From an uncultured Flavobacteriaceae bacterium (lineage in GTDB: Bacteria; Bacteroidota; Bacteroidia; Flavobacteriales; Flavobacteriaceae): DNA of 44,462 nt. The translations under genes and the position numbers were made by a program. How positions within the stretch are numbered: position 1 is the first letter of the stretch; every line of letters starts with the position of its first letter. The DNA lies in contig CAJQLD010000052.1 of assembly GCA_905479095.1 (NCBI GenBank), forward strand, positions 1 to 44,462, given 5' to 3'. Under the pieces are notes generated by a model. It made no database searches and was not told the origin of the DNA. It saw only the letters and a list, made by a program, of their open reading frames with translations. This document shows, piece after piece, positions 10,443 through 40,057 of this stretch.

Positions 10443-10488
10443 ATTAATTAATTATTAAGGAAATATTAAGGGTCTTTCGTGTTATTTG
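10443..10488 (+). promoter_or_regulatory. Triple 11-bp-spaced operator and promoter, site 1
   Basis: Hexamers ATTAAT, ATTAAG and ATTAAG begin at 10443, 10454 and 10465, exactly 11 bp apart. After an 11-nt gap comes TTATTTG (10482-10488), a partial match to the Bacteroidota -7 element TAnnTTTG. The beta-helix gene starts 102 nt after the last G. The same arrangement precedes genes at 17761, 39656 and 40081. Confidence 0.75.
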
Positions 10489-10589
10489 ATTTAATAAATA
10501 GTACAGCTTACTCAAGTTAAGTTGAGTTCATTAATAATCAATACTTTTTAATAACCGATGACCTTAAGTCATCACAAAACACAATCAAA

Positions 10590-12023
10590 ATGAAAAAAAT
10601 TACTTTACTAACGCTTTTATTAATTGCTTTTACTGGTTTTACAGCACTAGCACAAAATACCGTTTATGTTTCAGCAACAGGTGCTGGTAATATGGATGGC
10701 ACAAGTGAATCAACTGCATTTGGCAACTTTGGAGTTGCCATGTCAAATATAACCTCTGGAGGAGATAAACTCATAATTGTAGGAACCATTACACCCGATG
10801 GCGCGAATCTAGCATCTAAGAATTTTGCATTTACTATAGAAGGTTTGAATACTAGCTCAACTTTAGCCGGAAATGGTGGTTCAGGTAGACTCTTTACAAT
10901 AAATGGATCTACTTCAGCAAATGTGACTTTTAAAAATCTTACATTTTTAAACAACACTACCACACTTGCTGGAGGTGGTGTCTTTTTTAATAACAACGCA
11001 GGAGCTACAGCAACCTTTGAGAACTGTACCTTTACTGGAAATTCTGTAACTAACAGCGCAGGTGGTGGAGTTATATTAGTCTCCAACGGAAATTTAACCA
11101 TAACAAATTGTGTTTTTGAAAACAATACATCATCAGATAAAGGAGGGGCTATTGTCGCTGGAAATTCTGCAAATGTAAACATCTCAGGATCTCTTTTTAA
11201 CGGAAACTCTGCAACTAAAGGTGGTGCAATTGCTGTAACAGGCAATGGTGTAGATTTCGTTTTGAACACTAGTACTTTTGTGAATAATTCCGTATCAAGT
11301 AATGGTGGAGGAGCGATGTACTTAGGAGGTTCAAATGCCAACAGTAGTATTACCAATACGACTGTTTTTAATAATACTGTAAATTACACCACGTTAAATC
11401 AATCTACAGGCGGTGGAATACGAATTGAAGGCGCTAGACCTTTTACAATACAAAACTCATTAATTTATGGGAATTTGGTAACAAATGGTACAGAGACTGC
11501 AGGTTCAGATATTGGAATTGTTCCTAACGTTGTACTTAATCTATCACATTCAATTACCAAAAAAATTGAGCCTGCCTTAGACGATACTGCTGGGGATGAT
11601 TTTTCTACATCTATAATTGAAGCAGATTTAACGTCTTCTAACTTAACCTTTAATTCAACTACTGGTACTGTTGAATATGGTTCTGTATCTAGTTCGGAAG
11701 ATAGCCCAATAGATTTTGGATCTGATGGGAATGATGTTGGTGCTTGGAATTCAGGGTTAGCTTTATCTTTAAATAAACAAGATGTTTTAGCTGCTAATTT
11801 ATTAGTGTTTCATAATAAAGCTTCTAACAGCATAAAAATTATCCATACTATTTCTACCCCATTAACAGTAGAGGTCTACAGTGTTATAGGCTCGAAACTA
11901 TTAGGTCTTAAAAATGTCGCGCAAAGACAAAGCATTCAAGCCAATTCTTTAGCTTCAGGAATCTATATTTTAAAAGGTGAATCATCTGGGAAATCGTTCT
12001 CGAAAAAATTTATTGTAAAATAA
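10590..12023 (+). CDS. Secreted Pmp-repeat-like parallel beta-helix protein with T9SS sorting domain
   Basis: A 477-residue protein with a signal peptide (cut after ALAQ) and right-handed beta-helix coils from about residue 30 to 350. The coils carry FxNN and GGAI-type motifs (FENCTFTGNS, SDKGGAIVAG, ATKGGAIAV) like those of chlamydial polymorphic outer-membrane-protein repeats. The last 75 residues form a type A T9SS C-terminal sorting domain ending GIYILKGESSGKSFSKKFIVK, so the protein should be exported and anchored at the cell surface. It has its own promoter with the triple operator and is followed by a hairpin, so it can be made alone. The same beta-helix plus tail appears as the C-terminal third of the next gene product. 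It may bind glycan or be an inactive polysaccharide lyase-like fold; no catalytic residues can be named. Confidence 0.82.
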   Translation: MKKITLLTLLLIAFTGFTALAQNTVYVSATGAGNMDGTSESTAFGNFGVAMSNITSGGDKLIIVGTITPDGANLASKNFAFTIEGLNTSSTLAGNGGSGRLFTINGSTSANVTFKNLTFLNNTTTLAGGGVFFNNNAGATATFENCTFTGNSVTNSAGGGVILVSNGNLTITNCVFENNTSSDKGGAIVAGNSANVNISGSLFNGNSATKGGAIAVTGNGVDFVLNTSTFVNNSVSSNGGGAMYLGGSNANSSITNTTVFNNTVNYTTLNQSTGGGIRIEGARPFTIQNSLIYGNLVTNGTETAGSDIGIVPNVVLNLSHSITKKIEPALDDTAGDDFSTSIIEADLTSSNLTFNSTTGTVEYGSVSSSEDSPIDFGSDGNDVGAWNSGLALSLNKQDVLAANLLVFHNKASNSIKIIHTISTPLTVEVYSVIGSKLLGLKNVAQRQSIQANSLASGIYILKGESSGKSFSKKFIVK

Positions 12024-12056
12024 AAAAAAAGAGTTCCGACACTTTTAATAGTATAA

Positions 12057-12083
12057 AAATAGGGGTTTTAAAAACCCCTATTT
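12057..12083. terminator. Strong hairpin between the beta-helix gene and the fused sulfatase
   Basis: AAATAGGGGTTTT pairs with AAAACCCCTATTT across a single-base centre. On the plus strand the tract after it is T-poor; on the minus strand it runs into TTTTTATAC. It likely ends or attenuates transcription of the beta-helix gene, making expression of the fused enzyme lower or separately controlled. Confidence 0.6.
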
Positions 12084-12093
12084 AAATTAAAAT

Positions 12094-12108
12094 CTGTTTT
12101 CAAAACAG
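12094..12108. promoter_or_regulatory. 15-bp palindrome upstream of the fused sulfatase
   Basis: CTGTTTTCAAAACAG is a perfect 7-1-7 palindrome, 25 nt before the TTG start. It could be an operator or a small leader hairpin; no related copy was seen at other genes. Confidence 0.3.
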
Positions 12109-12133
12109 TTCCCAAAATTTAAAAAAGAATACA

Positions 12134-15100
12134 TTGAAAAAGTATTTCGTTTATTTGTTTTTAGTATTCAATACGTCACTTTTATTTGGTCAACAACCAA
12201 ATATTGTGTTCATTATGACCGATGATCAAAGTTCAATTCCTTTGAGAACTAGTGATAATATAAATCAATCCAGACCTTTTGGTTTTAATGGAGATTCTAA
12301 GGTCCACACCCCTATTATTGACAATTTAGCAAGCAATGGAATTGTCTTTAACAATGCATTTGTGTCTTCCTCTATATGCAGCCCAAGTAGGTATAGTATT
12401 TTAACAGGGAGATACGCTGGAAGATCTGAAGGCACTAATTTTTTAAACGGGTATCCATTGGGACAACTAAGTCGCGTTGCAAACAATATAGAACTCGAAG
12501 AAAATACAGATAATTTACCAAAATTATTACAAGCTGCAGGGTACAATACTGCTTTTATAGGAAAATCTCATATTGTGGATCATGAAGCCCTAAATACCTA
12601 TACTCAAGGTGAGTTTGGTTTCATGGCATACAATAAAACCGATGACCCCTATGTAGAAGCTATTTCAGAGGCCATGAAATTTAATCATTATAAATGGGCA
12701 GATAGAATTAAAGATTTTGGATTTGATGTCGTAGATGCCTTTTATCCCGCAAACTTAAGAGAATTAAAAAATGATGACTTAAACGTTCACAACGTTGAGT
12801 ATAAGAATAAAGCAGTTCTCGATTATATTGAGAATGCTAGTGACGACCCATTCTTTATTTATTACAGTGAAACGGTACCGCATGGCCCAGCACCCTTTTG
12901 GTCAAGTAATAATGATTTTTATGCCGGTTTAGATTCAGATGTAAACATCACAGCCGAAGGTATTTTAGTACAAGATTATTCGTACTTACCAACACGAGCG
13001 CAAATAAAAGATGAAATTTCTAATTTACCCGGAAAGGACCTAAAACAAGCTTGGTTGCGTTGGTTTGACCATGCTGTTGGTGCTGTTGTTAGTAAATTAG
13101 AGGAAACAGGAAAGTTAAACAATACCATCATCATTATTACTTCCGACCATGGCGATTTTAACAAAGGGAAATCCACAAATTATGATGCAGGTACAAAAGT
13201 GCCTTTAATGATGTATTGGCCCGATGGTATTACGACGCCATCTACCTACGATGAATTAGTACAAAACATAGATTTCGCTCCTACTTTTTTAGATCTTGCG
13301 GGTGGAGATCTTTCTAATACAGATATGGATGGTCTAAGTCTAAAAGACGTTATTACGAATAATGTTACAGAACCTGTTCACGATCATTTGTTTTTTGAAC
13401 TCGGATTTTCTAGAGCGATTAGAACCAAAGACTGGAAATATGTGACGGTGCGGTATGATGATGCTACAAATCAAAGAATAGCCAACGGAGACACTTTCAA
13501 CGGGCCAAACGGAACACAAGTGCCTCTACCCTTCTACATCCCAAATGTATCTTTGGGAAGTTTAAGTGCAGGTGCGTACCCACTGTATCATGTAAAAGAC
13601 CAATTATTTGATTTAAATAATGACCCTTATGAAGCCGTCAATCTTTATGATACACAACCTGAAAAAGCCACAGAACTAAGGAATATATTAAGAACAGAAT
13701 TACTAACATTTATTGACAGACCTTATCAAGAATTTACAGATACCAGCATAGACTTAACAGTTACTACAGAAGATACTTCAATTTTAGGGAAGGTTTTAGC
13801 GGGCTATCAAGGGTGGTTCAATACGCCAACAGATGGTGCAGATTTAAATTGGAAACATTATCAAACTAGCATAAGTGGCGTTAAAAAATTTGAACCTGGC
13901 TTTGCCACTTTAGATTTTTGGCCCGATATGAGTGAGGCAGATGCCGATGAAAAACACATCACCGCTTTTACACATAAAGATGAAACTGCAGCGCATGTTT
14001 TTTCATCCACAAACATAAAAACAGTCAATCGTCATTTTAAATGGATGAATGATTATGGAATCGATGGGGTTTTCTTTCAACAATTTGCTTCGAATTTAAA
14101 ATCAAATGCAGCAAAAATAAAAGCCAATGACAATCTTGTTTTTGACAATATCATAGCCGCTGCTCAAGCAAATAACAACAGACTCGTTAGTGTTATGTAT
14201 GATTTATCGGGAGCTAACGCCACTTCAACAATGGTTGAAGACGTGAAATTACATTGGGAATCTCTTGTTTCTAGACATGGCGTTAATGATCCTTCAAACA
14301 GTCATTTATTAACCTACAACCAAAAGCCTGTCGTTGCACTTTGGGGCGTAGGTTTTAGTCGTACAGACAAGTATGATTTAGATGATGTGCAAGAATTGAT
14401 TAATTATTTTAAAAACGATGCGACCTATGGTGGCTGTTCCGTTTTATTAGGAGTACCAAAAAGTTGGAGAACCTTAAACAGTGATGCCGTTAATGACACT
14501 CAATTACACACCGTTATCAGGTCTGCTGATATTGTACACCCTTGGACGCCTGGGAGGTATAGTAACATCAGTGGTGTCGATAGCCACAAGACTATTATAA
14601 TTGCGGATAAAGCGTGGTGTGATGCAGAAAACTTATTATATATGCCGGTCGTTTTTCCAGGTTTTAGCTGGCAGAATCTAAAGAAAAGCCAAGACACATT
14701 TTCTAGCCTTAACAGTATTCCAAGGTTAAAAGGAGAATTTTTATGGCGGCAATTATACAATGCCGTTGATGCTGGTGCCCAAACTATTTATGTGGCAATG
14801 TTTGATGAGATGGACGAAGGAACTTGTATTTTTAAAGTTGAAAATGACCCCCCATCAAATGCATTAAGTCAATTTACAAACTATGAAGGTTTACCTAGTG
14901 ATTATTATTTATGGCTCACAGGAAAAGGCGGTGAAGCTTTAAGAGGAGAAATAGCACTCACGGTCAATCAACCAACATATCAAGATTTACCAGAAATCAC
15001 TGATTATTACGCAGATGAATTTGGAGATGACACTAATACAGGAACAAGTCCAGGGACCGCGGTTTCAACAGTTCATAAAGCGTACACTTTTGCAAACGGA

Positions 15101-16381
15101 GGAAATACAATCAATATTTCTGGTACTGTCATACATAATTCTAAAATTTCGGTTCAAAAAAGCCTGAGTTTCTTGGGTACAAACAATGCCATCATTTCAC
15201 CAGATGTAAATAAAGTAGGCACAGATCGATTATTTCATATTAGTAAACCAGATTTGAATGTTTCTTTTTCAGACATTACGTTTAAAGGAAACAAAGAATC
15301 ATCCATTAATGGGGGCGCAATAAATATGAATGTAAATTCTAATTTAACGTTTACCAATAGTGTTTTTGATGATAATTCTACAGGCGGCGTTGACAAAGCT
15401 GGTGGAGGTTTGTTTTTTAGTGAAGGAAATGTCACTATTATAAACTCCATTTTTAAAAATAATTTATCGCGAGGAAATGGAGGGGCTATTAGCGGTTCTG
15501 GGGATGGAACCTTAACCATAACAGGGTCTTTGTTTGTCAATAATACCGCTGCAAATATTAATAAAACGGACGGAAATGGAGACAGAGCCAATGGTGGTGC
15601 CATTAATGTTTTTGGAGATGGTAGAGAGGTAATCATGTCTGAAAATACCTTTTATAATAACGAAGCAACGTTTCAAGGCGGCGGTTTATATTTTGGAGGT
15701 TTAAATGTGACTAGCAGTTTAGAAAACATCACTGTTTTTGGTAACAGAGTAAGCTTAACATCTTCAGAAACAGGAAGAGCTGGCGGAATTAGAATTGAAG
15801 GAGATAGAACTTTCGAGATTAAAAACGCCTTGTTTTATGACAATCGTTTAGGAGATACCGAAAACCCAGAATCTGATATAAGTAGTGCCTCAGCGGTTCA
15901 ATTAAACTTTATAAATTCATTGTCTGGTAATTCTGAAGGTTTCGGATCAGATGACACGTATGACTCTTCAAAATTAGATGTAGTTTTGACCGCTTCTAAT
16001 TTAAATTTTAATGAAACCTCTGGAAAAGTAGAATATGATGAAGCACCAAATGGAGATGATACTCCTATCGGTTTTGGAACTGATGGGAATGATGCTGGTG
16101 CTTGGAACTCAATGCTTGTATTATCTGTTGACGAGACTCAAGTTTCTAAAGATGATTTTAGAATTGATTTTTATAATTCGTCCAAAAGCATTAAGGTATT
16201 CTCTGCCAACAATTTACCATTAGATATAAAAATTTATACGATTCATGGGGCTATGGTACTAGAAAAAGACTCCAATAATCCTAAAGAACTTATAAATATC
16301 GCGCACTTAAAAACAGGCGTTTATATTCTAAATGCAATGGAAAACGGAATGCATTATTCAAAAAAGTTTATTCTTTATTAA
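12134..16381 (+). CDS. Trimodular secreted enzyme: S1 sulfatase, GH71/99-like domain, beta-helix, T9SS tail
   Basis: A 1415-residue protein starting at TTG 12134, which gives a complete signal peptide ending LLFGQ. Residues about 22-540 are a type I sulfatase: PNIVFIMTDDQS binds the metal, C82-S-P-S-R is the formylglycine motif, and IIIITSDHGDF supplies further metal ligands. Residues about 550-945 are GH71/99-like, opening with LGKVLAGYQGWFN and carrying FDEMDEGT (E892, E895) where GH99 enzymes have their paired glutamates. Residues about 965-1310 are Pmp-like beta-helix coils and the end is a T9SS sorting domain. Each module has a separate relative here: the sulfatase at 34168, the GH domain at 23841, the beta-helix at 10590. 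It is probably a surface enzyme that desulfates and cuts the same mannan chain. Confidence 0.85.
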   Translation: MKKYFVYLFLVFNTSLLFGQQPNIVFIMTDDQSSIPLRTSDNINQSRPFGFNGDSKVHTPIIDNLASNGIVFNNAFVSSSICSPSRYSILTGRYAGRSEGTNFLNGYPLGQLSRVANNIELEENTDNLPKLLQAAGYNTAFIGKSHIVDHEALNTYTQGEFGFMAYNKTDDPYVEAISEAMKFNHYKWADRIKDFGFDVVDAFYPANLRELKNDDLNVHNVEYKNKAVLDYIENASDDPFFIYYSETVPHGPAPFWSSNNDFYAGLDSDVNITAEGILVQDYSYLPTRAQIKDEISNLPGKDLKQAWLRWFDHAVGAVVSKLEETGKLNNTIIIITSDHGDFNKGKSTNYDAGTKVPLMMYWPDGITTPSTYDELVQNIDFAPTFLDLAGGDLSNTDMDGLSLKDVITNNVTEPVHDHLFFELGFSRAIRTKDWKYVTVRYDDATNQRIANGDTFNGPNGTQVPLPFYIPNVSLGSLSAGAYPLYHVKDQLFDLNNDPYEAVNLYDTQPEKATELRNILRTELLTFIDRPYQEFTDTSIDLTVTTEDTSILGKVLAGYQGWFNTPTDGADLNWKHYQTSISGVKKFEPGFATLDFWPDMSEADADEKHITAFTHKDETAAHVFSSTNIKTVNRHFKWMNDYGIDGVFFQQFASNLKSNAAKIKANDNLVFDNIIAAAQANNNRLVSVMYDLSGANATSTMVEDVKLHWESLVSRHGVNDPSNSHLLTYNQKPVVALWGVGFSRTDKYDLDDVQELINYFKNDATYGGCSVLLGVPKSWRTLNSDAVNDTQLHTVIRSADIVHPWTPGRYSNISGVDSHKTIIIADKAWCDAENLLYMPVVFPGFSWQNLKKSQDTFSSLNSIPRLKGEFLWRQLYNAVDAGAQTIYVAMFDEMDEGTCIFKVENDPPSNALSQFTNYEGLPSDYYLWLTGKGGEALRGEIALTVNQPTYQDLPEITDYYADEFGDDTNTGTSPGTAVSTVHKAYTFANGGNTINISGTVIHNSKISVQKSLSFLGTNNAIISPDVNKVGTDRLFHISKPDLNVSFSDITFKGNKESSINGGAINMNVNSNLTFTNSVFDDNSTGGVDKAGGGLFFSEGNVTIINSIFKNNLSRGNGGAISGSGDGTLTITGSLFVNNTAANINKTDGNGDRANGGAINVFGDGREVIMSENTFYNNEATFQGGGLYFGGLNVTSSLENITVFGNRVSLTSSETGRAGGIRIEGDRTFEIKNALFYDNRLGDTENPESDISSASAVQLNFINSLSGNSEGFGSDDTYDSSKLDVVLTASNLNFNETSGKVEYDEAPNGDDTPIGFGTDGNDAGAWNSMLVLSVDETQVSKDDFRIDFYNSSKSIKVFSANNLPLDIKIYTIHGAMVLEKDSNNPKELINIAHLKTGVYILNAMENGMHYSKKFILY

Positions 16382-16399
16382 TTCATAATTCACTTAAAT

Positions 16400-17566
16400 A
16401 TGTTTAAAAACAACCTCATCATTTTCTTTGTAAGTTTAGTTCACATTAGTGTGTTTTCACAAAGTGAGATCATCGTTGAAAGTGAAATTACAGATATAAA
16501 CAAGCAGACTCTAGCTTTTACATCGATTAGTATTATGTCTAAATCTATCGGAACCATTAGTAATGAAGAAGGGCGTTTTTCTTTAAGATTAACCAAAGAA
16601 AATTTAAACGATACGATCACGATTTCTACACTTGGATTTAAATCTTTTAAAATAAAGGTTCAAGATTTTATAGATCAAGACATAAAAGTTGTAACTCTTG
16701 AAGAAGACTTAGTATCTCTTGATGAAATAGTTATACAAGATCCGGCATCTTATGTGAAATCTGCATTAAAAAAACTAAAAGAGACCACTTATAGTAAAGG
16801 TCATCAATTAAATATTTTATACCGTAGATTTTCTAATGAAAATAATGTGTCAAGATTTTTAGTAGAACATTATGCAAAAGTATATGACAATGGACCAACG
16901 TCCAGAGAATTTGGACCCATAGAAATTGTAGAAGCTAGAAAGTCTAACGATTATCGATTTGCAAAAAAGAAACAGAAATTTCATGCCATTAAAATGACAG
17001 CCAAACAAAACCCATTAAGAGCTGGAATTAGTACCCGGAGTTACAAATGGAAGATTGTTGATGACACTTCATACGATGGCGAAGATGTGATTGTTTTGGA
17101 AGGAACAGATAAAAACAAAAAAAATAAATGGATTCGATTATACATCGGCTCTGACACTAGTAACATTTATAAATTTGAGAAATCTGATTTAAATGCTGTC
17201 TATATTTATAAAAAAAACAAAGATGGAACTATGGTGCTAAGCTACCATAACAGAGAATATGTGTTTCGGGAAAAAGTATCCCCCCAAACGAAACGATTAC
17301 TTAAACTAGAAGAAGATGAAATTAAATTGTCTTACAGACATGAAGCTATTATTTTAGGTATTGAAACCGATAGAAAAAAAATAAGAGTTAGTGAAAACAT
17401 CAAATTAGGTAAAGATATTGGGGATTACAATTTAAAATATGATCCACAATTTTGGGAAACTGTCAGTTTACCTCCCGATTCTAAATTTTATAAAGAAAGC
17501 TCCAATCAATTAGAAAACATCTATGGAATTCCTTTAGAAACTCAATTTAAAAGAGTCAAAAATTAA
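16400..17566 (+). CDS. Secreted carboxypeptidase-regulatory-like domain protein
   Basis: A 388-residue exported protein with a signal peptide ending VFSQ. Residues about 25-105 form a CarboxypepD_reg-like beta-sandwich (LAFTSISIMSKSIGTISNEE, then GRFSL, DTITISTLGFKSFKI and SLDEIVIQDP), the same module that begins SusC proteins. The remaining 280 residues have no family I can name; they are beta-rich and resemble the C-terminal region of such proteins often annotated as outer-membrane-associated of unknown function. It follows the fused enzyme by 18 nt and precedes the susC promoter by about 70 nt. A role in surface assembly or transport is possible but not shown. Confidence 0.7.
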   Translation: MFKNNLIIFFVSLVHISVFSQSEIIVESEITDINKQTLAFTSISIMSKSIGTISNEEGRFSLRLTKENLNDTITISTLGFKSFKIKVQDFIDQDIKVVTLEEDLVSLDEIVIQDPASYVKSALKKLKETTYSKGHQLNILYRRFSNENNVSRFLVEHYAKVYDNGPTSREFGPIEIVEARKSNDYRFAKKKQKFHAIKMTAKQNPLRAGISTRSYKWKIVDDTSYDGEDVIVLEGTDKNKKNKWIRLYIGSDTSNIYKFEKSDLNAVYIYKKNKDGTMVLSYHNREYVFREKVSPQTKRLLKLEEDEIKLSYRHEAIILGIETDRKKIRVSENIKLGKDIGDYNLKYDPQFWETVSLPPDSKFYKESSNQLENIYGIPLETQFKRVKN

Positions 17567-17632: not shown

Positions 17633-17677
17633 GTTAAGTGAAAATTAATAAAAAATTAATAAAAACAGGTTCTTTTG
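17633..17677 (+). promoter_or_regulatory. Triple 11-bp-spaced operator and promoter, site 4 (susC operon)
   Basis: GTTAAG, ATTAAT and ATTAAT begin at 17633, 17644 and 17655, exactly 11 bp apart, followed after 10 nt by TCTTTTG (17671-17677). The gap to the promoter element is one base shorter than at the other three sites. The susC start codon is 84 nt downstream, leaving a leader of roughly 75 nt. Confidence 0.7.
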
Positions 17678-20997: not shown

Positions 20998-20999
20998 TT

Positions 21000-31097: not shown

Positions 31098-32558
31098 ATG
31101 CTCACTGTATTTTTACATGTTTTAATTATTCTGACGTCTATTGTATCAAAAAACGATACTATAAAATCTCGTACAGAAAAAAAACCAAATGTTATCGTTT
31201 TTATTGCTGATGATTTTGGTTACGGATCAACCAATATTTATGGCGCACAAGAAGCATTAATAAAAACGCCAAACGTAAATAAATTAGCCAAAGAAGGCGT
31301 GAAATTTACAAATGCCTATACAACAGGTTCTGTTTGTACGCCCACAAGATATGCATTAATGACCGGTCAATATTCTTGGAGAACAAAACTTAAAAAAGGG
31401 GTTGTTAATATGAATGACCCAGCTCTAATTGATGTGAAAAGAAAAACATTACCAAAATATATGCAATCTTTAGGTTATAAGACAGCAATGGTTGGTAAAT
31501 GGCATTTAGGATTTAAAGAAAAAAAGTTCAATAATTTATTAGGAAATATTTATCCTGCTCCAACAGATTATGGTTTAGACTATAGTTTTGCATTGCCTAA
31601 TAATTTAGATGATGGGCATAAAGTTTATATAGAGAATAATAAAATTTATGGATTGCGTTCAGATAAAATTTCTCCTTACGGAAAATCATTTTATGGAAAA
31701 CAATACAAAGGATATGATGCCCCGCAAAGAGTTACAGAGCAAGTAACAAATGATTTAACAAGCAAATCTATAGAGTGGATGAAAAGTTTGGATAAAGACC
31801 AGCCATTCTTTTTATACTATGCAGCAGCTGCAGTTCATCATCCTATTGTGCCTAGTCCACAAATGCGAGGTAAAAGTAATGCAGGTGCTTATGGAGATTT
31901 TATTCAAGATATAGACCGTTCTTTAGGAGATTTAATTGCATTTTTAGAAGAAAGGGGTCTTAGAGAAAACACCATTATCATTTTTGCGAGCGATAATGGA
32001 GGAGATATTCCTAGAAAGAAAAATCTTGTTATGCCAGAAAATTTTGCCATCAACAAAGGCTTACAAATTAATGGAAATTATAAAGGTGATAAACATACCA
32101 TTTGGGATGGAGGTTTTAGAATTCCGTTTATTGTAAATCATCCAAAGAAAATAGGAGAAGATAAAACTTCTAATGTAACTGTCTCAACAATTGATATTTA
32201 TGATTTTTTAGCAGATTATATTGGTAATAATAAAGGATTAGATTTTGAAGATGCACCAGATAGTTATAGCTTTAAAAAAGCTTTATTAAAGCCCAATAAA
32301 TTTTACGAAAGACCTCCTTTGGTGCATAGAGATGCGCAAGGTAGAAAAGCAATTCGTTTTGAAGGGTGGAAATTCATTGAAGAAAAAAATAAAGACACAA
32401 AGAGAAAGATGAATGCTGAAATGCTTTTTAGCTTAACTAAAGATAAAAAGGAATCTACAAATCTTGCTAAAACAGAAACAGCTGTTGTTATCAAAGCAAA
32501 AGACTATTTATCTAAAGTTATAGTAAAGTCATCCAAAGAAATTTGGAAAAACAATTAA
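31098..32558 (+). CDS. S1-family sulfatase (CTPTR type)
   Basis: A 486-residue sulfatase with a hydrophobic leader. KPNVIVFIADDFGYGS provides the first metal ligands, C80-T-P-T-R is the formylglycine site, VGKWHLGF is the conserved substrate-pocket lysine and histidine segment, and IIFASDNGGD supplies the second metal pair. The leader ends without a lipobox, so it is probably periplasmic. Proportions match arylsulfatase-type enzymes acting on sulfated sugars. It resembles none of the other sulfatases in the locus closely, so it likely removes a different sulfate ester. It follows the transporter by 26 nt. Confidence 0.9.
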   Translation: MLTVFLHVLIILTSIVSKNDTIKSRTEKKPNVIVFIADDFGYGSTNIYGAQEALIKTPNVNKLAKEGVKFTNAYTTGSVCTPTRYALMTGQYSWRTKLKKGVVNMNDPALIDVKRKTLPKYMQSLGYKTAMVGKWHLGFKEKKFNNLLGNIYPAPTDYGLDYSFALPNNLDDGHKVYIENNKIYGLRSDKISPYGKSFYGKQYKGYDAPQRVTEQVTNDLTSKSIEWMKSLDKDQPFFLYYAAAAVHHPIVPSPQMRGKSNAGAYGDFIQDIDRSLGDLIAFLEERGLRENTIIIFASDNGGDIPRKKNLVMPENFAINKGLQINGNYKGDKHTIWDGGFRIPFIVNHPKKIGEDKTSNVTVSTIDIYDFLADYIGNNKGLDFEDAPDSYSFKKALLKPNKFYERPPLVHRDAQGRKAIRFEGWKFIEEKNKDTKRKMNAEMLFSLTKDKKESTNLAKTETAVVIKAKDYLSKVIVKSSKEIWKNN

Positions 32559-32559
32559 A

Positions 32560-34161
32560 ATGAAAAATAAAGTAACATTACTAATTGTTGGTTGTTTGTT
32601 GTTGATGTTTAACTGCAGGTCTAAAAATGAATTTATAAATCAAACTAAAAACAAGAAGAAGCCAAATGTGTTGTTACTATTTTCTGATCAACACAACAAA
32701 AAAACAATGGGTTATGAAAATCATCCAGACGTCATTACTCCAAATTTAGATAAATTCTCAGAAGAATCTGTAGTCTTTGATAGAGCCTATGCCACAAGAG
32801 GTGTTTGTGTCCCCTCTAGAATGTCTTTAATGACAGGACTATACCCAAGAACACTGGGTTTAATGAATAACAATGAAGAAACTTCTGTGACAGAGAAAGC
32901 GACTTCATTAGCTAGTATTTTTAAATACAATGGTTACCAAACCTATGCTTTTGGCAAAAGACATTTAAAAGGTGGTGGAGATAAAGGCTGGGATGTTAAA
33001 AAAGAGGTACATCCTGAAGAAGGCGATACTGGAAACTATTTAAGCTGGGTGACAAAACAAGGCTATCAATCTGAATTTTCTTATGATTGGGCTGCAGAAT
33101 TTGGAAAAGGTCCCAAAGGAAGTAAAGATGCGAACGCTAAAATACCTACAGCTGATTTAGGGACGCGTATTTCTAAATTACCATTTGGATATACGATGGA
33201 GGCTTACACTGCATTAGAAACCATTAATATGATTGATCAACAAAAAAATAGCGATACACCTTTCTTTTGTTTTTCTTCTTTTTATAGACCACATCAACCC
33301 TACACTCCTGTTAAGAAATTCATGGATATGTATACTGTTTCAGAATGGGGAAAGGGCACAAAATTAAAAAGCGGCATAAAAATGCCCGCTAGTTTTTACC
33401 AACCCACAAAAGATTTACCACCCTTATTACAATTCCAAAGAAATGGAGGAAACAAAGTATGGAACATGGATAAGGCTTTTAAAGACGAACAACTCTGGAG
33501 AGATTATATTGGAGCCTATTACGCCTTAGTCACAGAAGTAGATCATTACGTTGGTGAGATTTTACAAGCTTTAGACAAAGCAAACATCACTGAAGAAACA
33601 ATCATTATTTATACCACAGATCATGGCGATTTTGTTGGGAACCATGGAATGGTAGAAAAAGCTGCTGCCGGTCATAATATTTATGAAGATATTTTAAACA
33701 TTCCCCTAATGATTAGAATTCCAGGGAAAACACTTCAGGGAAAACATACTGCAGAACTGGTAACTTTGGTCGATATTATCCCTACCTTAATCGATGTTTT
33801 AGACTTAAAAACTCCCGGTTTAGAAAACAATTTTGAAGGCGTATCACTCGCTAAATTATTGCTTGAACAAAAACCATTGAACAGAGATTATATCGTATCA
33901 GAAAGTTGGTTTCAAGCGACCGTAATCGGTAAAAATGCAAAATTGGGTATTATGAAACCCAACCCCGTAAATCCTAAGCGAGATTATAGGGAATTTGGGG
34001 ATATGTTTTTTGACAGAATAAACGACCCTTTAGAATTGAATAACGGAATTAATGATGAAAAAAATCAACAAAAAATAGCGAAACTTAGAGCGTTTTACGC
34101 CGATTTTAAAACACAAGTTTCCGGAATTGGAATGCAAGAAATAAGTAACAAAAATAAATAA
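32560..34161 (+). CDS. S1-family sulfatase lipoprotein (CVPSR type)
   Basis: A 533-residue enzyme with lipobox-like LMFNC (C19). Key segments are KPNVLLLFSDQHNKKTMG, C83-V-P-S-R followed by MSLMTGLYP, the FGKRHLKGGG pocket and IIIYTTDHGDFVGNHGM. SDQH in place of DDxG and the GNHG tail set it apart from the neighbour at 31098 and place it nearer the group that includes 36990. It starts one base after the previous stop codon, so the two genes are likely co-translated. Lipid anchoring suggests it faces the periplasm or surface. Confidence 0.9.
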   Translation: MKNKVTLLIVGCLLLMFNCRSKNEFINQTKNKKKPNVLLLFSDQHNKKTMGYENHPDVITPNLDKFSEESVVFDRAYATRGVCVPSRMSLMTGLYPRTLGLMNNNEETSVTEKATSLASIFKYNGYQTYAFGKRHLKGGGDKGWDVKKEVHPEEGDTGNYLSWVTKQGYQSEFSYDWAAEFGKGPKGSKDANAKIPTADLGTRISKLPFGYTMEAYTALETINMIDQQKNSDTPFFCFSSFYRPHQPYTPVKKFMDMYTVSEWGKGTKLKSGIKMPASFYQPTKDLPPLLQFQRNGGNKVWNMDKAFKDEQLWRDYIGAYYALVTEVDHYVGEILQALDKANITEETIIIYTTDHGDFVGNHGMVEKAAAGHNIYEDILNIPLMIRIPGKTLQGKHTAELVTLVDIIPTLIDVLDLKTPGLENNFEGVSLAKLLLEQKPLNRDYIVSESWFQATVIGKNAKLGIMKPNPVNPKRDYREFGDMFFDRINDPLELNNGINDEKNQQKIAKLRAFYADFKTQVSGIGMQEISNKNK

Positions 34162-34167
34162 CCAATA

Positions 34168-35808
34168 ATGACATTAAATACTTACAAAACCATTGGATTT
34201 ATAGTCTTTTTATTAATAATTGGCACTAATAAATCAATTGCACAAAACACTAAAAAACCAAACATCATCTTTATTATGACAGATGATCAAAGTGCGGTTG
34301 TTCCTTTAGATTCAGAGAAAAGAATACAATCGCGTCCTTTCGGATTTAATGGTGATAAACAAGTACATACCCCCATTATAGATGATTTAGCAAAGAATGG
34401 AATGATTTTTAACAGCGCATATGTATCAAGCTCTGTATGTGTGCCAAGTAGATATACAATGCTAACTGGACGTTATGCAGGAAGATCAGAGGGCCCTTCT
34501 TTTATGAAAATGCATCCGAATGGCACAATGACAAGAGTAGAAAACAATACAGAAATAGAAAAAGACAAATCCAATTTACCAAGACTATTACAAGAAGTCG
34601 GTTACAAAACAGGGTTTGTAGGTAAAAGTCATATTGTAGAACACGATATTGTAAACAATAAAAAAAATTGGGAGAAAAATGGCTTCCAGACCTATGCTAA
34701 AAATGCAGATCCAAATGATCCATCAGTTTCTAAAAAAATGTTTGAAAACCATCAAAAATGGACAGAAGTAATTAAAGAATATGGCTTTGATTATGCGAAC
34801 GCATTTTATGCAGGAAATTTAAGAGAACAGTATAATGATTCTTTGAATGTTCATAATGTAGAATGGAAAAATAAAGCGGCTTTAGAATTCATCGATGAAA
34901 ATAAAAATGATCCTTTCTTTTTGTATTACAGTGAAACGGTTCCTCATGGTCCAGCACCCTATAATATGAAAAATGGGAACTACTTTAGAGGTTTAGATTC
35001 AAATCCAAAATTTACAGGACAAGGGTTGATCGATGCCGATTACTCCTATTTACCCACCAGAGAAGAAATTAAAGAAGAAATCAAAAATCTTGATAAAAAA
35101 GTAGCACATGCCTGGCTGCGATGGTTTGATCATGCGGTTGGTGCGGTTGTAGACAAACTAAAAGCAGAAGGTATTTATGAAAATACCATTATTATAATTA
35201 CGTCCGATCATGGGAACTACAACGGGGGAAAAACGACCTTGTATGAAAGTGGAACAAAAGTTCCTTTAATGATGCATTGGCCAAATGGAATTAATCCGAA
35301 CCAAGAGTATAACGAGTTGGTTCAAAATATTGATTTTACCCCTACTTTTTTAGATCTAGCAGGTATTAAATTAAAGAACGTAGAATCTACATTAGATGGT
35401 GTAAGCTTAAAAAAGGTATTAAAAGGAACTAAAAAACCCGTACATGATTATTTATTTTTTGAGCTTGGTTATGCAAGAAGTGTCATGACTAAAGATTGGA
35501 AATACATTTCTGTAAGATATGATAAACAAAAACAGAACAGAATAAACAAAGGCTTACCATTTAAAGGGTGGAAAGGTGCAGAACTTCAATACCCCTATTA
35601 CACAAGAAATGGTCATTTGGGGAATATTGCATCCAAAAGCAGTGCTTTTTATTTTGATGCAGATCAAGTATTTGATTTAGTTACTGATCCTCGAGAAACT
35701 AAAAACATTTTTGAAGACAACAAAGAAAAAGCAGATGAACTTAAAAATTTACTGACAAAAAGTTTAAAGTTGTTCCCGAACCGCCCTTATGCAGAATTTG
35801 TAAATTAA
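34168..35808 (+). CDS. S1-family sulfatase, stand-alone relative of the fused sulfatase module
   Basis: A 546-residue periplasmic sulfatase with a signal peptide ending SIAQ. The catalytic cysteine lies in C91-V-P-S-R followed by YTMLTGRYAGRSEG. Along its length it reads almost like the N-terminal module of the 12134 fusion: PNIIFIMTDDQS, SRPFGFNGD, VHTPIID, YYSETVPHGPAP, WLRWFDHAVGAVVDKL, TKVPLMMHWPNGI. It therefore should remove the same sulfate ester, one copy acting in the periplasm and the other at the surface. It is 6 nt from the previous gene and 1 nt from the next. Confidence 0.92.
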   Translation: MTLNTYKTIGFIVFLLIIGTNKSIAQNTKKPNIIFIMTDDQSAVVPLDSEKRIQSRPFGFNGDKQVHTPIIDDLAKNGMIFNSAYVSSSVCVPSRYTMLTGRYAGRSEGPSFMKMHPNGTMTRVENNTEIEKDKSNLPRLLQEVGYKTGFVGKSHIVEHDIVNNKKNWEKNGFQTYAKNADPNDPSVSKKMFENHQKWTEVIKEYGFDYANAFYAGNLREQYNDSLNVHNVEWKNKAALEFIDENKNDPFFLYYSETVPHGPAPYNMKNGNYFRGLDSNPKFTGQGLIDADYSYLPTREEIKEEIKNLDKKVAHAWLRWFDHAVGAVVDKLKAEGIYENTIIIITSDHGNYNGGKTTLYESGTKVPLMMHWPNGINPNQEYNELVQNIDFTPTFLDLAGIKLKNVESTLDGVSLKKVLKGTKKPVHDYLFFELGYARSVMTKDWKYISVRYDKQKQNRINKGLPFKGWKGAELQYPYYTRNGHLGNIASKSSAFYFDADQVFDLVTDPRETKNIFEDNKEKADELKNLLTKSLKLFPNRPYAEFVN

Positions 35809-35809
35809 T

Positions 35810-36982
35810 ATGAAAAAAACTATGAGATCAATCGGAGTTCTTTTGGCGTGCTGTTTTGTTTTAACTAGTGCTGCTCAAAAGACAATCGATACAATAGCGA
35901 CAAAAGCAGGTGGATATGACATTCCTATTCGAATAAAACTACCAAAAAATACCAACGGGAAAAGCCCAGTATATTTCTTTGTGCATGGCGGTGGATGGAA
36001 TGGCGGTACTGCAACAAATGTTCCACCAGCAAGATTGCCTTCAGATGCTAATTATCTAGCGAATCAATTAGGGGTTATTTATGTAGGATTGGCATATAGA
36101 TGTAAAGGCAACAATGCAACATTTGCGGATGCTATAGAAGATTTAGAAGCGTCTGTTCAATGGTTTTTTGATAATGCTGACACCTACAATGCAGACCTTA
36201 CAAGGATTGGTTTTGGAGGATCCTCAGCAGGCTCCACATTAGCAGCTATGATGGCTCAGAAATACAAGAGCTGTAAACTATTTGTGGGTGCAGAAGGCAT
36301 GTATAATTTAGTAGAACATTCAGAAGAAAGATCAACGTTTCCTAGTCAAAAAGCAAGAGGATTATACGGATTAGTCACAGAAAAAGAAAGTAAAAAAGCA
36401 TCTGCATTTTATAACTTAAGAAAAAATCCACCCAATACTTTATTGTTAAACGGGAAAAACGATGGCTTATGCCATTATACTCAAACAGAAAAATTTGCTG
36501 AACAAATCAAGAAAAAAGGCGGCAACGTAAAAGTGGTTTTGTACGATAAAATTAATCACACCTGTTTAAATGCGTCTTACCCAGAAGTACTAAAGAATAG
36601 TGTTTTAGAGATTGCCAACTTATTTATTGAAGCGTTTCAATTAGAAAATAAAAATAGGCGTCAAATAGAAGTTCTGTTGGATAAAAGGCTTCAGGGTATG
36701 TATCCTAAAGAAAATATTAATGAAAATGATGTTCTGGGCGCTTGGGAATTTAAAAATTTCATTATCACTTTAAATGAAAACGGGCAAGGGTCTCTCTTAA
36801 ATTCTAAAAATAATAGTACAAAAAGATTTATATATACTTTAGAAAAAGATTCAATAACTTTTGAAGTGAATGGTAAGACTAAACAATTTTACATGCGAAA
36901 AAACAATAGCGTAATCTATGAATATAACTTTGCCGATGAACGATTTAAGTATAGAAGACTTAATTATAAGAAAGTAAGCTAA
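35810..36982 (+). CDS. Alpha/beta-hydrolase esterase with extra C-terminal domain
   Basis: A 390-residue exported hydrolase (signal ends TSAAQ). The oxyanion segment FFVHGGGWNGG, the nucleophile elbow GGSSAGS with S139, and a late INHTC histidine near 251 match the BD-FAE / acetyl-esterase type alpha/beta hydrolases that remove acyl groups from polysaccharides. After about residue 290 there is an additional region of about 95 residues (VLGAWEFKNFIITLNENGQG and on) that looks like a small lipocalin-like beta-barrel and is not part of the esterase fold. Placement between sulfatases suggests that the glycan carries acyl groups as well as sulfate. Confidence 0.82.
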   Translation: MKKTMRSIGVLLACCFVLTSAAQKTIDTIATKAGGYDIPIRIKLPKNTNGKSPVYFFVHGGGWNGGTATNVPPARLPSDANYLANQLGVIYVGLAYRCKGNNATFADAIEDLEASVQWFFDNADTYNADLTRIGFGGSSAGSTLAAMMAQKYKSCKLFVGAEGMYNLVEHSEERSTFPSQKARGLYGLVTEKESKKASAFYNLRKNPPNTLLLNGKNDGLCHYTQTEKFAEQIKKKGGNVKVVLYDKINHTCLNASYPEVLKNSVLEIANLFIEAFQLENKNRRQIEVLLDKRLQGMYPKENINENDVLGAWEFKNFIITLNENGQGSLLNSKNNSTKRFIYTLEKDSITFEVNGKTKQFYMRKNNSVIYEYNFADERFKYRRLNYKKVS

Positions 36983-36989
36983 AACCGAA

Positions 36990-38591
36990 ATGAAATACGT
37001 TTTAAAAATATTAATTGTAATCCTTATTCTTTGTAGTAAAATACAAGATACGGCTGCTCAAAATGCAGTTGTAAATGAAGCACCTAAAAATCTACTCTTT
37101 ATTATTGTAGATCAGCAACGCTATGATGCCTTAAGTATTGCTGGAAACCCAATTGTGAAAACACCCAATTTAGACAGGCTTGCAAAACAAGGTGCCTATT
37201 TTAAAAATGCATACACGCCTGTGGCTGTTTGTGGACCAGCTAGATCCAGTATTTTAACAGGAACCACCATAAATACCAATGGTGTAAACACAAATAAAAA
37301 AACCTACAATTTCAATGATACCGCTGTAATGACCATGAAAACGTTTGATGAAATTCTTACAGAAAAAGGATATCATGCAGAATATTATGGAAAATGGCAC
37401 GCCTTAACTTCGCACGCAGCGACTTATAAAAACCAAAATAAATATGCTAAAAATGGGAAGTATATGTTTGAGCATGGAGGCCAGAGCTATATGTACCAAG
37501 ATTATTTAAACGATGTATTTCCAAAGAGAGAACCAAAATCTGGTGAATTATTAGACAACTTTACCAAAAGACCTTATACGCCAGATCCCTTAGATATCAA
37601 TTACGGAAAAACATATGCAGAAGTTAAAAAAGAAAACAAAAAGTTATCACAACCAAATTTTCACGGAAAATCTTCGATTCCAAAAGAACACACCATCACT
37701 GCTTTTTATGCTAAAAAGACCATAGAGGCCCTAGAGCGTTTAAAAAACAAACCGTTTAGTATTACAACTTCTTTTCACTTTCCTCATGCACCCATGATCC
37801 CTTCTGCGCCATACTATGGCATGTATCCTGCAAAGGATATGAAAGTTCCAGAAAGTATCGATGATGACATGCAAAACTCTCCATACAAAAATGCCAATAG
37901 TAGAAAAAAATTAACACAGTTTGCGGATGAGGAGAAAATAAAATATATGATTTCCAATTATTATGGTTTGATCACAGAATTAGATCATTGGATGGGCAAA
38001 ATTATGGACAAACTAGATGAAACTGGTTTAGCAGAAAATACGTTAATCATCTTTACAAGCGATCATGGAGAAATGTTGGGAGCACACGGAATGCGTGAAA
38101 AAAACGTGTTTTATGAAGAATCCTCTCACATTCCATTAATGATTAAAATGCCCACTGAAATTAAAAAAGAAACTACAGTAAATGGCTATGTATCTAATGT
38201 AGATTTATTTGCCACAATTATGGATTATTTAAAAATTGGAAAATATAAATCCGATGGCGAAAGTTTACGTGATTTGATAGAACATAAACAAACGAATCAT
38301 GGCAGCTATGTGGTAACTGAATGGAATTATAGAGGGCCAACATCCCCTAATTATATGATCGTCAAAGACGGATGGAAATTAATGGTTCCGTATACTGAAG
38401 ATTCTAAAGTTATAAATGCGATGTATCACTTAACTGAAGATCCGCATGAAATGAATAATCTTTTAGGAGAAAATCCGGAGAGAGGAAAATACGAGCAGAA
38501 AGCCGAAGAATTAAGAACAAATCTTTTAGAATGGTTAAAAAAAACTAACTCTATTCATTACCTTGGAGTTTCAAAAATAAAACTAATTTAA
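36990..38591 (+). CDS. S1-family sulfatase (CGPAR type)
   Basis: A 533-residue sulfatase with an N-terminal signal (ends TAAQ). NLLFIIVDQQRYDALS gives the metal-binding start, C81-G-P-A-R is the formylglycine site in its CxPAR form, YYGKWHALTSHAA the pocket segment, and LIIFTSDHGEMLGAHGM the second metal pair. The CxPAR motif and SDHGEMLGAHG tail separate it from the three other stand-alone sulfatases, so the operon carries at least four different sulfatase types. It starts 7 nt after the esterase gene. Confidence 0.92.
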   Translation: MKYVLKILIVILILCSKIQDTAAQNAVVNEAPKNLLFIIVDQQRYDALSIAGNPIVKTPNLDRLAKQGAYFKNAYTPVAVCGPARSSILTGTTINTNGVNTNKKTYNFNDTAVMTMKTFDEILTEKGYHAEYYGKWHALTSHAATYKNQNKYAKNGKYMFEHGGQSYMYQDYLNDVFPKREPKSGELLDNFTKRPYTPDPLDINYGKTYAEVKKENKKLSQPNFHGKSSIPKEHTITAFYAKKTIEALERLKNKPFSITTSFHFPHAPMIPSAPYYGMYPAKDMKVPESIDDDMQNSPYKNANSRKKLTQFADEEKIKYMISNYYGLITELDHWMGKIMDKLDETGLAENTLIIFTSDHGEMLGAHGMREKNVFYEESSHIPLMIKMPTEIKKETTVNGYVSNVDLFATIMDYLKIGKYKSDGESLRDLIEHKQTNHGSYVVTEWNYRGPTSPNYMIVKDGWKLMVPYTEDSKVINAMYHLTEDPHEMNNLLGENPERGKYEQKAEELRTNLLEWLKKTNSIHYLGVSKIKLI

Positions 38592-38601
38592 TATAAATAC
38601 A

Positions 38602-39573
38602 ATGAAATTATATCCTTTACAATTCACACCACTTTATAAATATAGAATTTGGGGTGGAGAAAAATTAAAAACAAAACTAAACAAACACTATACTGAAGAG
38701 AATATTGGAGAGTCTTGGGAAATTTCAGATGTTTCTGGCGATGAAACTATGGTTGAAAAAGGCGTTTTAAAAGGAAAAACATTACGAGATCTAACCAGAG
38801 CGTTTAAAGGTGATTTTGTCGGTAAAGCGGTTTATGAAAAATTCGGAGAAGAATTTCCTTTATTGATTAAATTTATTGATGCAAAGACCCCTTTATCTAT
38901 ACAAGTACATCCAAGTAATGAGGTCGCAAAAGAGCGCCATAACTCTTTTGGTAAAAATGAAATGTGGTATGTAATGCAAGCGGATACCGATGCAGAATTA
39001 ATTGTAGGCTTTGATGAAAAAATTAATTCGGATAGCTACAAAACACATTTAGAAACGAATACAATTCTGGATGTAATGCATCATGAAACTGTACAAAAAG
39101 GAGATACTTTTTACATTCCAACGGGACGTGTACATGCTATTGGCGCAGGGGTTTTGTTAGCAGAAATACAGCAAACATCAGATGTCACCTATCGTATTTA
39201 TGACTATGATAGAGTGGATTCAAAAACAGGTACAAAAAGAGAATTGCATAACGAATTGGCAATTGATGTCATCGATTATGAAGTGCATGATACTTATAAA
39301 ACGGATTATTCTATAGAAAAGAATGTGTCCAATACATTGGTGCATTCACCCTATTTTAGAACTAATATTTTAGACATCAGTTCAACAGTAGAAAAAGATT
39401 ATTCCGCCATAGATTCTTTTATTATTTACATGTGTGTAGAGGGTACCGTTAATGTTATTTCTGAAGGCGAAACCTACACAATAAATAATGGTGAAACGTT
39501 ATTAGTACCAGCAACTTTAAATAACATTACTTTAAAAGCAGATAATTCAAAAGTTTTGGAAGTTTATTATTAA
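38602..39573 (+). CDS. manA: Mannose-6-phosphate isomerase, class I
   Basis: A 323-residue cytoplasmic enzyme converting mannose-6-phosphate to fructose-6-phosphate. YKYRIWGGEKL and ESWEIS open the family fold; PLSIQVHPSNE carries the zinc-binding Gln-His pair, GKNEMWYVM the glutamate ligand, and FYIPTGRVHAIGAG the final histidine region. Length and order match short type I isomerases of Bacteroidota. It closes the 13-gene run, 10 nt after the last sulfatase, and is the strongest single sign that mannose is the sugar harvested by the locus. The kinase needed to make mannose-6-phosphate is not in the window. Confidence 0.95.
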   Translation: MKLYPLQFTPLYKYRIWGGEKLKTKLNKHYTEENIGESWEISDVSGDETMVEKGVLKGKTLRDLTRAFKGDFVGKAVYEKFGEEFPLLIKFIDAKTPLSIQVHPSNEVAKERHNSFGKNEMWYVMQADTDAELIVGFDEKINSDSYKTHLETNTILDVMHHETVQKGDTFYIPTGRVHAIGAGVLLAEIQQTSDVTYRIYDYDRVDSKTGTKRELHNELAIDVIDYEVHDTYKTDYSIEKNVSNTLVHSPYFRTNILDISSTVEKDYSAIDSFIIYMCVEGTVNVISEGETYTINNGETLLVPATLNNITLKADNSKVLEVYY

Positions 39574-39586
39574 TAAATAGTGCTTA

Positions 39587-39632
39587 GTTAATTCAATATT
39601 AATAGTGAATTAATGTCATCCTCTTTTATTTG
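39587..39632 (+). promoter_or_regulatory. Triple 11-bp-spaced operator and promoter, site 3
   Basis: GTTAAT, ATTAAT and ATTAAT begin at 39587, 39598 and 39609, exactly 11 bp apart. After an 11-nt gap comes TTATTTG (39626-39632). The start codon of the small secreted protein is 24 nt after the last G, the same distance as at site 2, so the TTTG must be the -7 rather than the -33 element. Confidence 0.75.
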
Positions 39633-39655
39633 AATAAAATTATAAATTAAACAAA

Positions 39656-39985
39656 ATGAAAAAAATAATTGTAATACTTCTTCTTTTGACTGTGTCCGTC
39701 GCTAAGGCTCAAAAAAATCCAAAAGCTGTAGCATTAGCAGATAAGCTATCTAATGTTATGGAGTTTGATGAAGATCAAAACACAATGCTTCTAGAATTAA
39801 TTCTAGATAGAAACAACAAGAAAAGAGCTTTAAGAAAAGAACACGAAGATGATAAGGACACTTTTGAGGTAAAAGCAAAAGAGGTAGAAAAAGCATACAA
39901 CAAAGACCTAAAAAAGTTAGCTGGTATAGAAAAATTTAAGCTTTTAGTTGCCTATAGAAAAGCGAAAAGAGCTGCAAAAAAATAA
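39656..39985 (+). CDS. Small secreted, highly charged helical protein of unknown function
   Basis: A 109-residue protein with a clear signal peptide (MKKIIVILLLLTVSVAKAQ). The mature 90 residues are almost wholly alpha-helical by composition, with alternating lysine/arginine and glutamate/aspartate (RKEHEDDKDTFEVKAKEVEK) and a C-terminal KAKRAAKK. Size and style recall periplasmic CpxP/Spy-like helical proteins, but no signature was recognised. It has its own promoter carrying the same triple operator as susC, so it belongs to the regulon. A role as chaperone, binding protein or envelope stress factor during mannan use is possible but unproven. Confidence 0.75.
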   Translation: MKKIIVILLLLTVSVAKAQKNPKAVALADKLSNVMEFDEDQNTMLLELILDRNNKKRALRKEHEDDKDTFEVKAKEVEKAYNKDLKKLAGIEKFKLLVAYRKAKRAAKK

Positions 39986-40011
39986 ATTAATTTTATAGTT
40001 TCTGCCCCATA

Positions 40012-40057
40012 ATTAATTGTTTATTAATCAATAATTAAGCCATTGTTGTTTTATTTG
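40012..40057 (+). promoter_or_regulatory. Triple 11-bp-spaced operator and promoter, site 2
   Basis: ATTAAT, ATTAAT and ATTAAG begin at 40012, 40023 and 40034, exactly 11 bp apart; TTATTTG at 40051-40057 follows after 11 nt, and the GH92 start codon 24 nt after its last G. It drives the third GH92 and probably the GH3 gene behind it. Confidence 0.75.

Follow-up and report, generated by a model that had tools for sequence, protein, structure and literature searches.

How are the several transcription units of a polysaccharide utilization locus (PUL) switched on together? The question is raised by a 44,462-nt stretch of DNA from an uncultured Flavobacteriaceae bacterium (assembly GCA_905479095.1, contig CAJQLD010000052.1; the whole stretch is referred to here as the window), in which the first-pass annotation had described three RTTAAK hexamers in fixed 11-bp register at four places and proposed them as a PUL-specific operator of a regulator encoded at 7783. 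The answer favored here, which comparative sequence analysis makes very probable, is that the regulator is a transmembrane SARP-type activator with a kelch sensor that binds the three tandem 11-bp repeats, which would replace the −33 element, at alpha-mannan PUL promoters.

Arrays of three hexamers in the window

Exact matches to RTTAAK-N5-RTTAAK-N5-RTTAAK are located at 10443, 17633, 39587 and 40012, all on the + strand with 0 mismatches, and the window contains no others, as had been annotated. Each array is followed, after a gap of 10 or 11 nt, by TTATTTG (TCTTTTG at susC), and the final G at 39632 and 40057 lies 24 nt from the ATGs at 39656 and 40081, respectively. All four arrays precede a gene start and are separated by a gap from the previous gene, in keeping with their assignment to the starts of transcription units.

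The window has a GC content of 33%, which speaks for chance in AT-rich DNA as an explanation of the arrays; however, 100 dinucleotide shuffles of the window gave a mean of 0 and a maximum of 0 exact triples (observed, 4), and a scan of periods from 7 to 18 bp identified four exact triples at period 11 and none at any other, with a single further triple, at period 18, when one mismatch was allowed. The probability of chance is therefore negligible, the earlier view that AT-richness poorly explains the fixed register holds, and chance is refuted by the recurrence of period-11 triples across the phylum in the 80 loci described below. When up to two mismatches were allowed, 11 matches were found in the window against 0.91 expected, comprising the four arrays, four reverse-strand readings of them (1–2 mismatches), two readings shifted by one repeat, and a weak place at 42522 that has no TTTG at the expected offset. 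Because RTTAAK is nearly palindromic, the arrays can also be read on the other strand, and their direction is set by the side on which TTTG lies, a small correction to the first-pass annotation.

The regulator encoded at 7783

A Pfam search places kelch repeats in the middle of the 853-aa protein, for which only kelch and other propeller families match at E values up to 1, and NCBIfam does not name it. The most hydrophobic 19-residue window of the protein begins at residue 559, and a further one begins at residue 8; the regulator has one match in its own genome. The listed start codon is TTG, with no ATG at that point, and the true start is unsure.

Comparison of a profile of the C-terminal domain with PDB sequences gave no winged-helix match at E ≤ 1, and a fold search was therefore needed. 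An AlphaFold2 model based on 41 C-terminal sequences (predicted local distance difference test, pLDDT, 90; predicted template modeling score, pTM, 0.82) was compared with the PDB using Foldseek, which returned six matches at E ≤ 1e-3: three chains of EmbR (2fez, 2ff4) and three of AfsR (8hvr, 8k60), with template modeling (TM) scores to the query of 0.59–0.66 and 11–13% identity, the best being EmbR 2fez (E 1.1e-5). Since all six are EmbR or AfsR, the model points to the SARP activator fold, with an OmpR-type winged helix followed by a BTA helical domain. The tandem 11-bp direct repeats ending beside the −10/−7 element show the operator geometry of this family, and the curated models Trans_reg_C and BTAD do not recognize the window protein; membership of the SARP family is thus suggested by predicted fold and operator geometry and not by curated sequence models. 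The PhoB- or SARP-type DNA-binding domain previously assigned to this protein stands with respect to its modeled fold, which resembles EmbR and AfsR, and not with respect to Pfam.

Distribution in the genome, genus and family

The genome to which the window belongs (2.23 Mb, 102 contigs) contains the hexamer triple at six places: the four in the window; C38:4205, followed after a 10-nt gap by TCATTTG; and C22:12400, which has TTTG at gap 10 in the opposite orientation. The genes behind the latter two encode large secreted-type proteins of 1076 and 1311 aa. The relative G001, assembled as a single contig, has equivalents of all six arrays within one stretch (C1:298–344 kb), and G016 has equivalents of the four window arrays in the stretch examined. 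The first-pass annotation had asked whether equally good matches are scattered over the genome and whether the arrays are kept in homologous loci. The full pattern was found five times in the own genome, at the four window arrays and on C38 (in G001, the same locus), and the arrays are conserved in G001 and G016 within the genus and, as a triple with up to one mismatch, in 70 of the 80 loci across the phylum.

Of 18 genomes in the genus, 3 contain the full pattern with a TYWTTTG box, and the regulator or its 86% relative is present in the identical set; 4 of the remaining genomes have only relatives of 23–27% identity, and 11 have no match at E ≤ 0.001. Two of those four, G012 and G002, contain one exact triple each with no TTTG at the offset, and the three genomes are therefore distinguished within the genus by the full pattern rather than by the triple alone.

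A search of 397 genomes of the family identified the full pattern (with TNNTTTG) in four (five matches in the own genome, four in G001, and one each in G185 and G386), whereas the reversed control gave none; in G185, the match shares a contig with the 32% regulator relative. Without TTTG, the triple is present in 52 of the 397, mainly as isolated single matches, versus 46 for its reversed control (a hand count from a table; at most two per genome), indicating that, outside these loci, the bare triple hardly exceeds background and is not specific by itself. The distinguishing mark is the presence of several arrays together, with six places each in the own genome and G001, and three on one G185 contig. 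In the genomes with regulator relatives of 40–44% (G404, G196 and G186), arrays with up to two mismatches precede SusC-sized and other genes.

Three side observations were also made. Kelch-type regulators of about 26% identity in GH92 (glycoside hydrolase family 92) loci (G012 C25:1016, G002 C8 around 33141, and G041 C2:1243806) accompany CGATTAAT arrays at 11 bp, present at G041 C2:1243806 as two overlapping triples, and this flavor is possibly a variant of operator specificity. The 41% relative at G196 C16:76450–79023 has one in-frame TAA and is nonetheless surrounded by arrays. In G386, in which no regulator was detected, RTTAAK triples are located at C111:156–212 and C146:28232 (L084).

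Loci of related regulators across Bacteroidota

Relatives of the regulator were searched with an alignment of five regulator sequences, one of them a partial protein, and the best 80 of 127 loci were kept (1.57 Mb in total), all with full or near-full-length regulators and all selected by protein rather than by DNA motif. The regulators are 30–40% identical, except for that of L085 (85%), and the loci span Flavobacteriaceae, Dyadobacter, Pedobacter, Mucilaginibacter, Chitinophaga, Cyclobacterium, Prolixibacteraceae and others; as many come from close species, they do not amount to 80 independent events. Period-11 RTTAAK triples numbered 29 exact and 146 with up to one mismatch (both strands counted), compared with no exact triples and 0 to 4 with up to one mismatch at each other period from 7 to 18. 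The 146 readings fall at 118 distinct places in 70 of the 80 loci. None of the 146 is located in an ATG frame exceeding 450 nt, and for 116 of them an ATG frame follows within 400 nt. TTTG starts 13 or 14 nt past the third hexamer in 56 of these 116 (41 and 15, respectively), compared with 0.46 on average at each of the other offsets between 0 and 27. These observations suggest that the same operator, which appears to be recognizable from sequence alone, accompanies the relatives of the sensor across much of Bacteroidota.

When all 4-mers were scanned at periods of 6–19, TTAA at period 11 ranked first (99 observed versus 0.8 expected, in 64 of 80 loci), and the period-8 and period-16 words of the k-mer scan stem from 4 to 8 loci. 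A general de novo scoring of repeats in 8-bp windows was too blunt, giving 9 places at period 11, 26 at period 8 and 12 at period 16. The AT-rich, helically phased and promoter-adjacent character of the arrays would also suit phased A/T steps that curve the DNA or act like an UP element with no specific protein, but the word is TTAA, and the other top words at period 11, ATTA and TAAT, both lie within the RTTAAK hexamer; furthermore, arrays persist in 20 of the 23 loci with a GC content of 45–60%, and most other PULs in the same genomes lack the strict pattern, as described below. This explanation is highly improbable and was rejected.

A set of 28 control loci that share just the C-terminal module contains no array at period 9, 10, 11 or 13, and two at period 12 in one locus; only 3 of the 28 have a SusC-like protein and 1 a GH92-like protein, which makes the control weaker than it appears, and the remainder of the regulator-bearing genomes is a better one. 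In the control loci (L165–L192), the SARP-type module belongs to flavobacterial proteins whose similarity to the window regulator is confined to this module; the presumed recognition helix has different residues, and there are no TTAA arrays.

Thirty-three genomes of the 80-locus set were searched whole (approximately 212 Mb) with the strict pattern RTTAAK-N6-TTAAK-N5-RTTAAK-N10/11-TNNTTTG, which gave 19 matches in 14 of the 33, and 0 for the reversed control. Fourteen of the 19 fall within the 0.73 Mb of the regulator loci, and three more lie 36–44 kb from the regulator on a contig that also bears an in-locus match, and two of these three stand about 0.9 kb ahead of a GH92 match. The remaining pair is conserved between two Chitinophaga genomes (G433 C245:12518 and G439 C11:209072), outside the regulator locus, about 9–10 kb from a GH92 match and oriented away from that gene. 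Five genomes with at least 42 SusC matches and 12–16 GH92 matches each (some genes counted as two pieces) contain only 1 or 2 strict-pattern matches each, indicating that most PULs there are without the strict pattern. The operator that had been called PUL-specific is better described as specific to PULs with this kind of regulator.

PhoB/OmpR-type response regulators also combine a winged helix with 11-bp direct repeats, and one of them might bind the arrays while the kelch regulator is merely nearby; the single triples in family genomes that lack the regulator (at least one triple in 52 of 397, close to the 46 of the reversed control) could be read in this way. Against this stand the clustering of several arrays around the regulator gene in loci selected for the regulator alone, the presence of the full pattern and a close regulator in the same 3 of 18 genus genomes, and the fitting fold predicted for the 7783 protein itself, which, unlike such response regulators, has no N-terminal receiver (no Response_reg in Pfam at E up to 1) and is modeled with a helical BTA-like domain after the winged helix. 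This alternative is accordingly improbable, and the proposal that the arrays are a candidate operator of the 7783 regulator is supported by a pattern that is not scattered, is kept in homologous loci and tracks the regulator within the genus.

Promoter geometry and proposed mode of action

A flank profile was derived from 46 distinct arrays with TTTG in place, in which the hexamers are conserved through site selection and the flanks were not so selected. In repeats 2 and 3, WW ahead of RTTAAK completes a unit of 8 bp, which is followed by three less conserved bases; position 22 of the profile is C in 9 of the 46, and the two bases ahead of hexamer 1 are not conserved. AfsR binds two 11-bp repeats from −40 to −19 and contacts the first 8 bp of each (PMC10936776), and the flavobacterial −7 box is TAnnTTTG at −12 to −5 (PMC9723704). 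With the G of TTTG set at −5 and a gap of 10, repeats 2 and 3 would have their 8-bp units at −40 to −33 and −29 to −22, the very bases that AfsR contacts, with one extra repeat upstream; with a gap of 11, as at three of the four window sites, the units lie one base further out than the AfsR positions. On this placement, transcription would begin 5 nt past the G of TTTG, at about 10493, 17682, 39637 and 40062. Because the start sites are themselves predicted, a deviation of 1–2 nt from the AfsR positions is possible. On these predicted starts, the arrays cover the place of the −33 element, a motif that could not be found in Flavobacterium johnsoniae (PMC7366714). The four window boxes have T in place of the A of TAnnTTTG, which might fit activator-dependent promoters.

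In the proposed mechanism, each array would be an operator of the regulator encoded at 7783, the kelch part of which would sense a mannan-derived glycan in the periplasm while its cytoplasmic SARP-type domain binds DNA; the geometry suggests one protomer per 11-bp repeat, with three side by side. With 10 or 11 nt between the last repeat and a weak −7 box, the protein would sit at the place of the −33 element and could recruit RNA polymerase as AfsR does, leading to coordinated induction of the alpha-mannan PUL units. The regulator would thus work like a SARP-type activator on tandem 11-bp repeats. It is also likely that transmembrane, periplasm-sensing SARP-type activators control alpha-mannoside PULs phylum-wide through a fixed operator of three 11-bp repeats and a weak −7 box, occupied by three side-by-side protomers.

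The sign of regulation is not proved by sequence, and the regulator might bind the arrays and repress until its ligand comes. This is unlikely, since the arrays stop upstream of the −7 box, at AfsR-like positions, rather than lying over it, and the T-for-A change in the window boxes might itself suit promoters that depend on an activator.

Several observations weigh against activation through the arrays by the 7783 regulator and its relatives. No array with up to two mismatches lies upstream of the regulator gene in the window, and C22:12400 carries TATAATTG, not TTTG, before its gene. The C-terminus of the window regulator is unrecognized by Pfam (neither Trans_reg_C nor BTAD), and among 29 members BTAD matches 4 and Trans_reg_C 2, all weakly. 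Ten of the 80 loci, four of them longer than 22 kb, contain no array at up to one mismatch, and 19 of the 33 regulator-bearing genomes have no strict-pattern match. Sixty of the 116 arrays with a downstream gene lack an exact TTTG at the expected offset, some of which arise because a near-palindromic array is counted a second time (27 of 119 places are read on both strands). In a 5-mer scan, ATTAA at period 11 ranked fourth (21 loci), below period-8 tandem repeats of 5–6 loci. Finally, G272 has a 31% regulator relative and no array in 37 kb (with one mismatch, or two with TTTG), the sole exception among the eight family genomes with the best regulator matches, and conversely G386 has arrays with no regulator detected and no relative of a window protein on the 10.4-kb contig C111.

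Genes behind the arrays

The contents of the 80 loci were labeled by similarity to the window's own proteins, which identified a GH92-like frame in 57, a GH99-like frame in 42 and a SusC-like frame in 30. The proteins behind the 116 arrays were labeled GH92 (38), GH3 (13), SusC (12), GH99-like (11), sulfatase (5), beta-helix (2) and regulator (2), with 33 unlabeled. Eight of the 18 unlabeled targets with TTTG, plus one GH99-like target, were looked up and comprise GH95, GH95-like with DUF5703, ROK (twice), GH92, GH2, fasciclin, a protein with a type IX secretion system (T9SS) tail, and GH99. Judging from these predicted functions, the common theme of the array-linked genes is alpha-mannoside use. 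The window protein at 12134 combines a sulfatase with a GH99-like domain in Pfam, in which it resembles PbSulf1-GH195 of the diatom sulfated alpha-mannan PUL of Polaribacter (PMC13063451); on the strength of this likeness, the window PUL probably acts on diatom sulfated alpha-mannan or a close glycan.

Relation to known regulators

AfsR, a SARP of Streptomyces that binds the afs box, shares with the modeled regulator the DNA-binding and BTA fold (8hvr, 8k60) and with its putative operator the 11-bp direct repeats beside the core promoter, repeats 2 and 3 coinciding within one base with the reported contacts at −40 to −33 and −29 to −22 if the predicted starts are correct. In contrast to AfsR, there are three repeats here rather than two, with a TTAA core and a Bacteroidota −7 box; the window protein is predicted to be transmembrane with a kelch part, whereas AfsR has NOD and TPR; sugar genes rather than antibiotic genes are concerned; and identity in the structural alignment is 11–12%. 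EmbR of Mycobacterium tuberculosis, the best Foldseek match (2fez), is not known to have a membrane segment, unlike the window regulator. It differs further in carrying an FHA domain (PMC10936776).

SusR-like regulators of Bacteroides are described as membrane proteins with a periplasmic sensor and a cytoplasmic C-terminal DNA-binding part that control PULs through direct repeats (PMC3878776), and the window regulator is predicted to share this membrane layout, PUL control and direct repeats. The predicted SusR motifs consist of two sites with centers 67 or 77 bp apart (PMC3878776), and SusR-like membership was rejected on operator shape only, as the present operator has three sites 11 bp apart. 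Hybrid two-component systems (HTCS) likewise control a PUL by one membrane polypeptide, and membership was rejected because the regulator has no histidine kinase, receiver or AraC-type domain (Pfam, E up to 1).

No published description of such a regulator was found in the literature searched, which did not extend to preprints. It would differ in kind, and in its operator, from the SusR-like and HTCS regulators of Bacteroides PULs, for which operators have been predicted (PMC3878776), and its operator is predictable from sequence, having been checked in 80 loci. It suggests a route by which a membrane-bound one-component sensor could activate Bacteroidota promoters and, if correct, the SARP mode of promoter activation would be common to Actinobacteria and Bacteroidota, and the operator and box together would allow regulons to be read from genome sequence. 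Such a regulator would also supply the missing control layer for a PUL like that for sulfated alpha-mannan in Polaribacter, the word "regulator" being absent from the main text of the paper on that pathway (PMC13063451).

Features of the locus

Table 1. Positions in the window of the regulator gene, the arrays, the −7-like elements and the units behind them.
Feature	Position	Strand	Description or basis
Regulator gene	7783..10344	+	Signal-peptide-like start, predicted periplasmic kelch part, transmembrane helix ~559–577, predicted cytoplasmic C-terminus of SARP-type fold 585–853
Array 1, three RTTAAK at 11-bp period	10443..10470	+	Pattern scan; equivalent in G001 and G016
−7-like element TTATTTG of array 1, gap 11	10482..10488	+	Sequence
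Array 1 unit: beta-helix protein (10590), sulfatase-GH99-like-T9SS protein (12134), CarbopepD_reg protein (16400)	10590..17566	+	Open reading frames, Pfam; probable boundary from spacing
Array 2, three RTTAAK before susC	17633..17660	+	Pattern scan; equivalent in G001 and G016
−7-like element TCTTTTG of array 2, gap 10	17671..17677	+	Sequence
Array 2 unit: presumably SusC, SusD, GH99-like, GH92, transporter, sulfatases, esterase, mannose-6-phosphate isomerase-like	17761..39573	+	Open reading frames; Pfam matches at 22759 and 23841; G001 has two GH92 matches at its equivalent place; probable unit from close spacing
Array 3, three RTTAAK	39587..39614	+	Pattern scan; equivalent in G001 and G016
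−7-like element TTATTTG of array 3, gap 11	39626..39632	+	Sequence
109-aa secreted-type protein behind array 3	39656..39985	+	Open reading frame; no significant family match
Array 4, three RTTAAK	40012..40039	+	Pattern scan; equivalent in G001 and G016
−7-like element TTATTTG of array 4, gap 11	40051..40057	+	Sequence
Array 4 unit: GH92-type protein, then a frame leaving the window that we take to be GH3-type	40081..44462	+	Open reading frames; GH92 match at the equivalent place in G001; probable unit

Two proteins of the array 1 unit have further features. The 388-aa protein at 16400–17566 has a carboxypeptidase-regulatory-like start and matches just the first ~80 positions of the SusC model. 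The 1415-aa protein at 12134–16381, which resembles the tandem enzyme PbSulf1-GH195 of the diatom mannan PUL in its sulfatase and GH99-like domains, also has a T9SS tail and a match to a beta-helix-like repeat.

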